Below are positions 14,482-29,481 of a stretch of 64,000 nucleotides of DNA, piece after piece. The DNA lies in the NCBI RefSeq assembly GCF_015500055.1, contig NZ_CP045492.1:3296501-3360500 (forward strand), in the 5' to 3' direction. The stretch is from Mesorhizobium sp. NBSH29 (GTDB taxonomy: Bacteria > Pseudomonadota > Alphaproteobacteria > Rhizobiales > Rhizobiaceae). A program made the translations under genes and the position numbers. Under the pieces are notes generated by a model that saw only the letters and a program-made list of their open reading frames with translations, was not told the origin of the DNA and ran no database searches. Within the stretch, counting starts at the first letter, position 1, and every line of letters starts with the position of its first letter.

Positions 14482-15054
14482 TTACATCCCCTGCGGACCG
14501 CGGTTCAGTGCGGCCACCCCAGTGCGGCATACTTCCACAAGCCCCAGTGGCTTCATGATCGCGATGAACTGCTCGATCTTTGACACCTTGCCTGTAATTT
14601 CAAAGATGAAATGCTCGGTATTGGCGTCTATCACGCTCGCGCGGAACGCGTCTGCCAGCCGCAGCGCCTCGACGCGGGTCTCGCCGGTACCCGCTACCTT
14701 GACCAAAGCCAGCTCGCGCGCCAGCGGACGCTCCTGTCCGAGTTCGGCTGCCCGAACAGAGAGGTCGACCACACGGTGAACGGGCACGATGCGCTCCAGT
14801 TGATGCTTGATCTGCTCCAGCACATGCGGCGTGCCGCGCGTCACGATGGTGATGCGTGAGAGGTGTTTTTCGTGTTCGGTTTCCGAAACCGTGAGGCTCT
14901 CAATATTGTAGCCGCGTCCCGAAAACAGCCCGATCACCCGCGCCAGAACCCCCGGTTCGTTGTCGACCAGAACCGACAGGGTGTGATTTTCCGGCAGAGC
15001 CGTTTCCTTGGCGATGAAATATGCCGAACCGGTCGGCTGAAGATGTGCGCTCAT
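14482..15054 (-). CDS. ilvH: Acetolactate synthase small (regulatory) subunit
   Basis: 190 residues (E. coli IlvH is 163; alphaproteobacterial ones carry an N-terminal extension as here). An ACT domain runs from TLSVLVDNEPGVLARVIGLF at about 25-44, and a C-terminal ACT-like domain lies after ELALVKVAGTG. It binds valine and gives feedback control to the large subunit. It is 30 bp downstream of ilvI and co-transcribed with it, so it shares the upstream attenuator. Confidence 0.96.
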   Translation of the reverse strand: MSAHLQPTGSAYFIAKETALPENHTLSVLVDNEPGVLARVIGLFSGRGYNIESLTVSETEHEKHLSRITIVTRGTPHVLEQIKHQLERIVPVHRVVDLSVRAAELGQERPLARELALVKVAGTGETRVEALRLADAFRASVIDANTEHFIFEITGKVSKIEQFIAIMKPLGLVEVCRTGVAALNRGPQGM

Positions 15055-15084: not shown

Positions 15085-16872
15085 CTAAACCAGTTCCCGG
15101 CCCTTGGCGTCGATGGCGTTGGCGACAGCTTCATCGGTGGCCTCATCCGGCAACAGCATCTCGTTATGCGCCTTGCCCGAAGGGATCATCGGGAAGCAAT
15201 TGGCAAGATTGGCGACGCGGCAATCGAAGAGCACCGGCTTCTTCACCGCGATCATTTCGGCGATTGCATCGTCAAGATCGCCGGGCTTCTCGCAGCGGAT
15301 GCCATGGCCGCCATAGGCCTCGGCCAGCTTGACGAAATCGGGCATCGCCTCGGTGTAGGAGTGCGACAGCCGGTTGCCATGCAGCAATTGCTGCCACTGG
15401 CGCACCATGCCCATATACTGGTTGTTGAGGATGAAAATCTTGATCGGCGCATTGTATTGCACCGCTGTCGACATCTCCTGCATGGTCATCTGCACGGACG
15501 CATCGCCGGCAATGTCGATTACTAGCGCGTTCGGATGCGCAATCTGCACTCCCAGAGCCGCAGGCAGACCATAGCCCATGGTGCCGAGCCCACCAGACGT
15601 CATCCAGCGGTTGGGTGCCTCAAAACCAAAGTGCTGGGCCGCCCACATCTGGTGCTGACCGACTTCGGTGGTGATATAGGTATCGTGAGCCTTAGACGCC
15701 TCATAGAGCCGCTGAATGGCAAATTGCGGCATGATGACATCGGCGTTGCTCTTGTAAGCAAGCGAATCCCGCGCGCGCCACTTTTCAATCTGCTCCCACC
15801 ATGGATGCAGCGCCTTCTTGTCGGTTTTGGCCGTCGCGCGCCATAACCTGACCATATCTTCCAGAACGCGCCCGCAATCACCGATGATTGGCACTTCGGT
15901 ATGAACATTCTTGTTGATCGAAGAGGCGTCGATATCGATATGGATCTTTTTAGAGTTCGGCGAGAATGCGTTAAGGCGGCCCGTGATGCGGTCGTCAAAG
16001 CGGGCACCGACGCACAGCATGACGTCGCAATCATGCATCGCCATATTGGCCTCATAGGTACCGTGCATGCCCAGCATCCCCATCCAGTTCTTTCCACTGG
16101 CGGGATAGGCCCCGAGTCCCATCAAAGTGGAGGTGATCGGAAAGCCGGTGAGTTCAACCAATTCGCGCAGCAAATGGCTGGCTTCCGGTCCCGCATTTAT
16201 GACGCCGCCGCCTGAATAAATAATCGGTTGCTTGGCACTCGCCATCAAAGAAACTGCTGCCTTGATCTTTTCCAGGTCGCCCTGAACTTTCGGCTGGTAG
16301 CTTGCGCGACCTTGAGATGGCGGCGGCGTGTAAATGCCCTTGGCAAACTGTACGTCTTTCGGAATGTCGACGACGACCGGCCCTGGTCTGCCGGTCGTGG
16401 CGACATGAAACGCCTCATGGATGATCGCCGCCAGTTCGTTGACATCCTTCACCAGCCAGTTGTGCTTGGTGCAGGGTCGCGTGATGCCAACCGTATCGCA
16501 TTCCTGAAAGGCATCGGAGCCGATCAGTGGCGTCGGCACCTGACCAGTGAGGCAGACCAGCGGAATCGAATCCATCAGGGCGTCCTGGAGTGGGGTCACG
16601 GCATTGGTGGCGCCGGGGCCGGATGTGACCAGCATAACGCCTGGCTTGCCGGTTGAACGCGCATAACCCTCTGCAGCGTGGCCGGCCCCCTGCTCGTGCC
16701 GCACCAGAATGTGTTGGACCGCGTCCTGCTGGAAAATCTCGTCATAGATCGGCAGCACCGCACCGCCAGGATAGCCGAAGAGGTGTAGTACACCATTGTC
16801 TTTAAGCGCCTGCACCACCATCTCCGCGCCGCTCATCTCGCGCGGCCCGGTATTATCCTGTCGGTTGCTCAT
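15085..16872 (-). CDS. ilvI: Acetolactate synthase large (catalytic) subunit
   Basis: 595 residues from ATG 16872 (MSNRQDNTGPREMSGAEMVV); an open frame reaches 17010 but runs back through the leader terminator. Thiamine-diphosphate enzyme: N-terminal domain with LFGYPGGAVLPIYDE and the catalytic Glu in RHEQGAGHAAEGYA, central FAD/nucleotide domain, and C-terminal TPP/Mg site IDIAGDASVQMTMQEM with NNQYMGMVRQWQQL. It makes 2-acetolactate or 2-aceto-2-hydroxybutyrate, the first step of branched-chain amino acid synthesis. The leader at 16935-17044 predicts control by charged tRNA for Leu, Ile and Val. Also called ilvB in rhizobia. Confidence 0.97.
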   Translation of the reverse strand: MSNRQDNTGPREMSGAEMVVQALKDNGVLHLFGYPGGAVLPIYDEIFQQDAVQHILVRHEQGAGHAAEGYARSTGKPGVMLVTSGPGATNAVTPLQDALMDSIPLVCLTGQVPTPLIGSDAFQECDTVGITRPCTKHNWLVKDVNELAAIIHEAFHVATTGRPGPVVVDIPKDVQFAKGIYTPPPSQGRASYQPKVQGDLEKIKAAVSLMASAKQPIIYSGGGVINAGPEASHLLRELVELTGFPITSTLMGLGAYPASGKNWMGMLGMHGTYEANMAMHDCDVMLCVGARFDDRITGRLNAFSPNSKKIHIDIDASSINKNVHTEVPIIGDCGRVLEDMVRLWRATAKTDKKALHPWWEQIEKWRARDSLAYKSNADVIMPQFAIQRLYEASKAHDTYITTEVGQHQMWAAQHFGFEAPNRWMTSGGLGTMGYGLPAALGVQIAHPNALVIDIAGDASVQMTMQEMSTAVQYNAPIKIFILNNQYMGMVRQWQQLLHGNRLSHSYTEAMPDFVKLAEAYGGHGIRCEKPGDLDDAIAEMIAVKKPVLFDCRVANLANCFPMIPSGKAHNEMLLPDEATDEAVANAIDAKGRELV

Positions 16873-16934
16873 CGGTCTGTTCCGTTGTTGTCGCCGTCCG
16901 GCGGTTCTTGTCGTCAAATTCGAGTTGCAGGCAA

Positions 16935-16958
16935 TAAAAAAGGCCCCCGAGGGAGCCT
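16935..16958 (-). terminator. ilvI: ilvIH attenuator terminator
   Basis: Read on the minus strand: AGGCTCC (16958-16952), loop CTCG, GGGGCCT (16947-16941), then TTTTT to about 16936. It stands 63 bases before the ilvI ATG and after the stop of the leader peptide, the normal place for an attenuator. A second hairpin, GGCGGT-GTA-ACCGCC on the minus strand (17000-16986), overlaps the leader stop codon. The competing antiterminator pairing could not be assigned by eye. Confidence 0.85.
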
Positions 16959-16990
16959 GTGTCTTGCGCATGGGAGCTTCCGCCCGGCGG

Positions 16991-17044
16991 TTACACCGCC
17001 TTGCCCACACGCCTTCCTACCACGAGAATGAGTTTTTGCGTCAT
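16991..17044 (-). CDS. ilvL: ilvIH leader peptide
   Basis: A 17-codon frame, MTQKLILVVGRRVGKAV, ending TAA at 16991-16993. Seven of 17 residues are Leu, Ile or Val, with LILVV in a row, the expected control codons for an operon that makes those amino acids. Ribosome stalling here when charged tRNAs are scarce should favour read-through of the terminator at 16935-16958. There is no ribosome binding site; instead a promoter -10 lies 7 bases before the ATG, so the peptide should be translated from a leaderless mRNA. The symbol is given by analogy. Confidence 0.85.
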   Translation of the reverse strand: MTQKLILVVGRRVGKAV

Positions 17045-17051
17045 GCCGGCG

Positions 17052-17080
17052 ACATTAGTGCGGACATTTCCGGTCGTCAA
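17052..17080 (-). promoter_or_regulatory. ilvIH promoter
   Basis: On the minus strand TTGACG (17080-17075), 17-base spacer, TAATGT (17057-17052), then 7 bases to the leader ATG at 17044. The expected start of transcription falls on or next to that A. It lies just after the stop of the upstream GNAT gene, so the ilv operon has its own promoter. Confidence 0.75.
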
Positions 17081-17099: not shown

Positions 17100-17624
17100 T
17101 TATATGCTTGTAAGGCGCTTCCAATAAATGAGCGTCCCGCTGAGCCCACCATGCGGTTTCAGGGCAAAATCAGGGATCTCTCCTGCAAGCGTGAAGCCTA
17201 GTTTTTCATACAGGCCGGCCGCCCCTTCATCCGCTGCAGTATCAAGCACCAGAAGCATTCGCGCCCGACCGCGCGCAATCCTTTCCGCTTCAACCATCAG
17301 GCGTTTGGCAATGCCCCTGCCCCGATATTCGGCAAGTGTCATCATCTTGGCAATCTCGGCCCGGTGCGGCTGGTTAGGTGCCATATCGAGCAGCAGCGTC
17401 ACGGTGGACACCAGCACCGGGCCGTCAAAGGCGCCGAGCACCACGCTCTCATCGCGTGCGGCAGCCTGCAGCCATTTTTCCCAGAATTCTGCCGCGTCTT
17501 TATTGGCTAACGGGTGCATGAAGCTAACCGAACCACCCAGCGCCACCACATCAACCAGCATGCGCGTCAGCATATCCAGATTTTCTGCCGAGATCTGAAC
17601 CGGCCTGATTTCAATAGTGCTCAT
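17100..17624 (-). CDS. GNAT-family N-acetyltransferase
   Basis: 174 residues, single GNAT fold. The acetyl-CoA binding region reads MMTLAEYRGRGIAKRLMVEAE (motif A, RGRGIA loop at about residues 107-112), and LGFTLAGEIPDFAL is the C-terminal motif B region. Acetyl acceptor unknown. It starts 4 bp inside the stop of the XRE-cupin gene (overlap 17621-17624), so the two form an operon; this regulator/acetyltransferase pair recurs in proteobacteria. The ilv leader promoter starts right after its stop codon. Confidence 0.9.
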   Translation of the reverse strand: MSTIEIRPVQISAENLDMLTRMLVDVVALGGSVSFMHPLANKDAAEFWEKWLQAAARDESVVLGAFDGPVLVSTVTLLLDMAPNQPHRAEIAKMMTLAEYRGRGIAKRLMVEAERIARGRARMLLVLDTAADEGAAGLYEKLGFTLAGEIPDFALKPHGGLSGTLIYWKRLTSI

Positions 17625-28937: not shown

Positions 28938-29137
28938 GGTATTCCCCTCGAAAAATATATGTAAAAAGCGGTGACACCGCAGCGCCTTGAGAAGCCTCAA
29001 TGATTCTCCGGGGCTCCTCACCAGCGGGAACTTCAAGGCTGAGTGTCTCTAAGTCAAGCCCGGCTACAACCGCAGGCATCCTGCTCGGTTAACAATTCGC
29101 CCTTCCAATTTCCGCATTCCATCCCTATATTCGGTTC

Positions 29138-29452
29138 GTCAGCTTGCTGACTATGGCGATAAACTGCCGATGTAATAAGCTTTTCGGACCCGGGGGCGGT
29201 ACCCGGCGCCTCCACCAAGATCGGTCCTGACCGGACCGTTGTTGCTGGGGGCGAAATAGGATCGACGAGGGTGTAAAGATCGGACTTTTGCTCGGCATTG
29301 TACCACCGTTATCGGGCTAAACTTGTAGTTGCAAATGACAACTATGCGGAAGCACGTCTCGCCGCTTAATGCGGTGCGATAGCTTCAATTCAAGCCCTAG
29401 TGGTTCGCACTTCTAGGCGGGGTTCGGAGGCACCTGGCAACAGAAGCCTCCA
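29138..29452 (+). ncRNA. ssrA: tmRNA, circularly permuted two-piece form
   Basis: The acceptor piece comes first and ends GGCGCCTCCACCA, with CCA at 29215-29217. A short spacer follows, then the coding piece opens GGGGGCGAAATAGG at 29247. GGGGGCG (29247-29253) pairs with CGCCTCC (29207-29213 region) as the acceptor stem, one G-U pair included. The tag frame at 29331-29369 encodes ANDNYAEARLAA. This order (3' half before 5' half) is the alphaproteobacterial permutation, needing cleavage of the spacer. The 5' end is placed by a TATATT at 29126-29131; the 3' end by the GGAGGC/GCCTCC helix closing at 29451. Both ends are approximate. With SmpB it rescues stalled ribosomes. Confidence 0.93.
29331..29369 (+). 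other. ssrA: tmRNA proteolysis-tag reading frame
   Basis: GCA at 29331 begins the resume codon and the frame reads A-N-D-N-Y-A-E-A-R-L-A-A then TAA (29367-29369). The C-terminal L-A-A is the ClpX recognition end, and N-terminal A-N-D-N-Y fits SspB binding. The sspB gene is 2.2 kb to the right. Confidence 0.9.
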
Positions 29453-29481
29453 CTTCTCTTGTATCTCTCCGCACACAAAAA

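Follow-up and report, generated by a model that had tools for sequence, protein, structure and literature searches.

Results

The window, which is the whole 64,000-nt stretch of DNA that was analysed, carries on its minus strand ilvI, encoding the acetolactate synthase 3 large subunit (15085..16872; NF006581, 1206 bits), followed by ilvH, encoding the acetolactate synthase small subunit (14482..15054; NF008864, 224 bits). All the leader features described here lie upstream of ilvI on that same strand. Direct reading finds a -35 element, TTGACG (17075..17080), at the position where TTGAC stands family-wide, and after a 17-nt spacer a -10 element, TAATGT (17052..17057). Seven nucleotides (CGCCGGC) separate the -10 element from the ATG at 17044 of a short frame, ilvL (MTQKLILVVGRRVGKAV; 16991..17044, stop included), which has 17 codons, seven of them for Leu, Ile or Val, and a TAA ending at 16991. 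Transcription is predicted to start at 17044-17045. Within ilvL stand five tandem regulatory codons, CTC ATT CTC GTG GTA (Leu Ile Leu Val Val; 17018..17032), and then the 5' arm of a long helix that we call P1 (GCGTGTGGG; 17004..17012), whose 3' arm lies at 16966..16974 (CCCATGCGC). P1 encloses a 6-bp inner hairpin spanning the stop codon (GGCGGT-GTA-ACCGCC; 16986..17000). Between ilvL and ilvI follows a G+C-rich 7-bp hairpin, AGGCTCC-CTCG-GGGGCCT (16941..16958), which scored terminator-like in a terminator scan, with a U-tract of six T (16936..16941) and, immediately 3' of it, ATTGCC (16930..16935), an instance of a conserved RTTGCC element.

The initial annotation had described this string of promoter, 17-codon frame, stop hairpin, terminator and ilvI, and every letter of it is present on the minus strand. 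Taken alone, the window promoter fails a plain sigma-70 scan, and the folding energy of the leader is unremarkable against shuffles (z = -0.64). The upstream neighbour is a GNAT-like gene on the same strand with its stop at 17100, so that read-through from it is possible. Elsewhere in the window, at 29099-29454, lies an alphaproteobacterial two-piece tmRNA (RF01849, 306 bits).

The whole element (16926..17045) is a full-length match to the Rfam family RF02502 (model 1-122 of 122, 97.5 bits, E 5e-20; the curated gathering cut-off is 50 bits) and the only copy in its genome. Rfam lists RF02502 as Atu_C8, 'Rhizobiales sRNA', with the type 'Gene; sRNA', and this cataloguing suggests that a short RNA exists in Agrobacterium. 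Matches were found in 131 of 249 genomes of the order Rhizobiales and in 382 of 395 genomes of the organism's own family, most of the 13 exceptions being reduced genomes; outside the order, just two of the sampled genomes had one. Among 110 oriented loci across the order, 108 lie directly 5' of an ilvI homologue, in the same orientation and within about 190 nt, and RF02502 is also upstream of ilvI at named loci of Agrobacterium, Ensifer, Rhizobium, Brucella and Mesorhizobium. By this placement, and by its sequence, Atu_C8, listed as an 'sRNA', is the leader of ilvIH and contains a leader frame. Among the papers open to search, none linked Atu_C8 to ilvI. One genome carries a tandem pair of RF02502-led ilvI homologues within 3 kb (L072 and L073; G223 C2:20031 and 22699).

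A run of at least three Leu, Ile or Val codons was present in 107 of 108 leaders, compared with 6.7% of shuffled frames. For these 108 leaders the frame was picked blind to composition, and the sole miss reflects a wrong choice of start codon; a further 76 named leaders had been picked by their Leu/Ile/Val run and are excluded from the count. The last regulatory codon, the ninth before the stop, encodes Val in all 87 leaders of the family (GTG in 49, GTA in 37 and GTC in one), and with few exceptions the three codons preceding it encode Leu, Ile or Val. Judged by this pattern, ilvL is a real coding sequence in which Leu, Ile and Val are conserved as amino acids under synonymous change. The proposal that an ilvIH attenuator contains a leader peptide rich in branched-chain codons is thus supported, as is the conservation of leader codons in relatives that had been suggested as a check on it.

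The initial annotation had also proposed that ilvL is translated without a ribosome site, and the promoter geometry supports this. All 86 scored family leaders have TTGAC 36-38 nt upstream of the ATG and a gap of 7-8 nt between the -10 element and the ATG; no Shine-Dalgarno (SD)-like motif was found in the 87 family leaders. A leaderless ilvL with a predicted start at the AUG is therefore supported by geometry. The RF02502 model begins at 17045, one base before the window ATG, but in sequences of the Agrobacterium type its first base is the G of the start codon; were that the true 5' end, the ATG would be missing. Across the order, the gap between -10 element and ATG is sharply bimodal, with 20 leaders at 6-9 nt, 69 at 23-57 nt and none between, and many of the long-gap leaders have an SD-like GGAG or GAGG before the start codon. 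Mapped onto an IlvI tree, the start mode changes five times, and at least two of the changes are forced by well-supported branches, which indicates from the sequences compared that the start mode has switched at least twice across the order.

Covarying stems in related genomes were another suggested check, and both P1 and the terminator covary. When 51 leaders, drawn from 27 families, were aligned, 92% of the cells in the two helices were paired, compared with 37-62% when slid, and 80 cells were changed on both sides, compared with 27 in shuffles; in P1, six of the nine pairs are changed on both sides. The 5' arm of P1 overlaps the end of ilvL, as expected of an attenuator helix that a stalled ribosome would open. 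It sets in two codons downstream of the fifth and last tandem branched-chain codon; a ribosome stalled on that codon would thus open P1. By masked folding, a ribosome stalled three codons earlier would leave it closed.

Classical attenuators need an antiterminator that competes with the terminator. We looked for one by masked folding and by duplex scans, each with shuffles, an approach that leaves aside pseudoknots and kinetic effects; equilibrium folding was not diagnostic of a switch, as the terminator dominates all states, E. coli controls included. When region 1 was masked, mean sequestration of the terminator 5' arm before its 3' arm is made was about 0.51-0.52, compared with 0.14 on average when P1 was formed. 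This sequestration was not above shuffles (mean 0.51 observed and 0.57 shuffled; above in 10 of 27 families), whereas all seven E. coli attenuators used as controls exceeded theirs, although individually only some did so by far. In the duplex scans, complementarity between region 2 and the terminator arms was below shuffles. The leader was also compared with each terminator arm and with the spacer, and no more than a single marginal signal emerged, close to the stop hairpin. A classical 2:3 antiterminator thus went undetected across the family, in tests that were set beside the seven E. coli controls. The behaviour of a ribosome at the stop differs as well. In masked folding of RF02502 leaders, P1 is no less open with a ribosome resting there than with a stalled one, and sequestration is not abolished, whereas in most E. 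coli leaders a ribosome at the stop abolishes it. An attenuation model for RF02502 thus needs fast ribosome release. As worded, the earlier claim that stalling alone tunes ilvIH is not supported, since such tuning calls for an antiterminator and the searches turned up none whose complementarity exceeded chance. On this evidence we describe the RF02502 element, with good confidence, as attenuator-like.

The RTTGCC element after the U-tract is conserved across 27 families at 0.8-1.7 bits per base, with conservation at background level beyond it. A tail of this type occurs on one of 55 other terminators, which rules it out as a general terminator feature, and has two sites in the whole of the organism's own genome. 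Pairing of RTTGCC with the leader showed no consistent partner across families, with a weak signal near the last codons only. The element may represent the far end of a tuned U-tract together with downstream DNA.

Additional RF02502 copies lie before other genes. In eleven examined genomes, from several genera and a second family, the gene downstream of a second copy encodes a Bcr/CflA-type MFS transporter (L011, L033, L215-L217, L222-L224 and L226-L228; leader at about 1501-1620 and gene from about 1570-1700 of each locus). Five second copies precede a second, divergent ilvI for an acetolactate synthase large subunit (L032, L204, L207, L208 and L209), two of which look gapped against ilvI, and another copy (L225:1141-1260) is followed after about 50 nt by the gene of an ABC transporter that has membrane and ATPase domains. 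In a genome of another order (L263), the sole RF02502 match is a leader before a Bcr/CflA-type MFS gene, with leader and gene at about the same positions as in the eleven loci above, which suggests that a unit of leader and transporter has been transferred. All these copies retain a short distance between promoter and ATG, a frame rich in Val, P1 and the terminator. RTTGCC is also seen in several transporter-linked copies.

Discussion

The element is genuine and ancient, but not new in kind. RF02502 was already catalogued, and for Sinorhizobium there was an earlier prediction of an ilvIH attenuator. Vitreschak et al. 2004 reportedly predicted that branched-chain-amino-acid attenuators control the alphaproteobacterial ilvIH operon. 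An 'ilvIH cis regulatory' element of S. meliloti is among those listed in PMC2573895, citing Vitreschak et al. 2004, and attenuation of the Caulobacter crescentus ilvBN/ilvIH operon is described in a statement of PMC4117421, citing Tarleton et al. 1994. The initial annotation had pointed to leader-peptide attenuation in gammaproteobacteria; that precedent stands but is incomplete, as these entries place predicted or reported ilv attenuation in alphaproteobacteria as well. As far as these citing sources describe them, the attenuators predicted by Vitreschak et al. share gene, proposed mechanism and order with the element described here, and the Caulobacter leader shares tandem Ile/Val codons and the ribosome-dependent attenuation that is predicted here, though RF02502 itself matched just two of the genomes sampled outside the order. 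Our description agrees with the RF02502 entry in its 5' and 3' limits and in its helices, but Rfam calls the RNA an sRNA where we see an ilvIH attenuator with a leader frame. The attenuator RNA of S. meliloti trpL, rnTrpL, has its leader AUG at the very 5' end and acts in trans (PMC7298713, PMC10117765); it has in common with RF02502 the AUG start predicted here, but has Trp codons and belongs to a different operon. As the initial annotation proposed, the terminated RF02502 RNA might act in trans too. With the E. coli ilvGMEDA, ilvBN, leu and trp attenuators, RF02502 has in common the regulatory codons, the protector helix and the terminator. The E. coli attenuators also have an SD sequence and antiterminator complementarity above shuffles, neither of which appears in the RF02502 leaders of the family. 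What we add, as testable points, are the switching of start mode, the transporter-linked copies and the lack of a detectable antiterminator.

We consider it probable, at roughly 0.75, that the element is a ribosome-sensing transcription attenuator of ilvIH with a leaderless leader peptide. The codons, P1, the terminator and the position before ilvI can be read in the sequence; the start site, the stalling and the direction of control are what we infer. Transcription would start no more than about 3 nt from the ATG, as the promoter geometry indicates, leading to leaderless translation of ilvL, and the ribosome would read Leu-Ile-Leu-Val-Val right before P1. When branched-chain tRNAs are charged, the ribosome would run on to the stop codon within the inner hairpin and come off, and P1 would re-form; the adjacent terminator could then fold freely, releasing an RNA of about 110 nt, the RF02502 'sRNA'. 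When these tRNAs are uncharged, a stall on the distal codons would keep P1 open and favour read-through into ilvIH. Ribosome release at the stop followed by re-formation of P1 is the simplest reading of this control.

A classical three-part switch, in which region 2 (GGAAGCU) would pair with the terminator 5' arm (GGCUCC) when region 1 is masked, is a serious contender at somewhat less than even odds. The nascent, late-stalled RNA of the window does fold a 6-bp GGAAGCU/GGCUCC helix, with a sequestration of 0.78, but 17% of shuffles reach at least this value, across families the signal falls below chance, and the E. coli controls exceed their own shuffles where RF02502 leaders do not. We think it unlikely that the RNA is a stand-alone regulatory sRNA that merely happens to lie before ilvI, with a frame that is incidental or, by analogy with rnTrpL, part of a dual function. 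The Rfam type, the copies before other genes and the precedent of rnTrpL, an attenuator RNA that is leaderless and works in trans (PMC7298713), would fit such a role. Against it, nearly all oriented loci precede ilvI (108/110) and the other copies checked also lie directly before genes, while the frame is under codon-level selection; trans action alone explains neither the frame nor the position.

It is very improbable that ilvL has a conventional start, on a longer transcript that begins further upstream and brings its own ribosome site. The upstream gene ending at 17100 on the same strand could supply such a transcript, and a 23-57 nt gap with an SD-like GGAG or GAGG occurs in many of the order's other families; family leaders, however, show no such motif (0 of 87) and keep their -35 and -10 elements at a fixed distance from the ATG (86 of 86). 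The promoter scan and the folding energy, unremarkable by themselves, would also be compatible with a short frame that stands by chance next to a terminator unrelated to it. We regard this as negligible, because a full-length RF02502 match at E 5e-20 and Leu/Ile/Val runs in 107 of 108 leaders against 6.7% exclude it, and codons, helix and position are conserved across 27 families.

Returning to the attenuator reading, a broader and more speculative extension, which we hold only tentatively and think doubtful as a whole, is that RF02502 might be a portable leaderless sensor of branched-chain amino acids. It would switch termination by a route other than a competing antiterminator, for example P1 opening plus the RTTGCC tail, and would have been copied or transferred before Bcr/CflA-type transporters and extra acetolactate synthases. 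Together, these findings tie RF02502, an 'sRNA' family listed with no function given, to a metabolic attenuator that is carried by hundreds of genomes of rhizobia, agrobacteria and the brucella group. The switching between leaderless and SD-led leaders offers a natural experiment on how start mode relates to attenuation, and the linked copies name transporter genes that probably respond to the supply of branched-chain amino acids.
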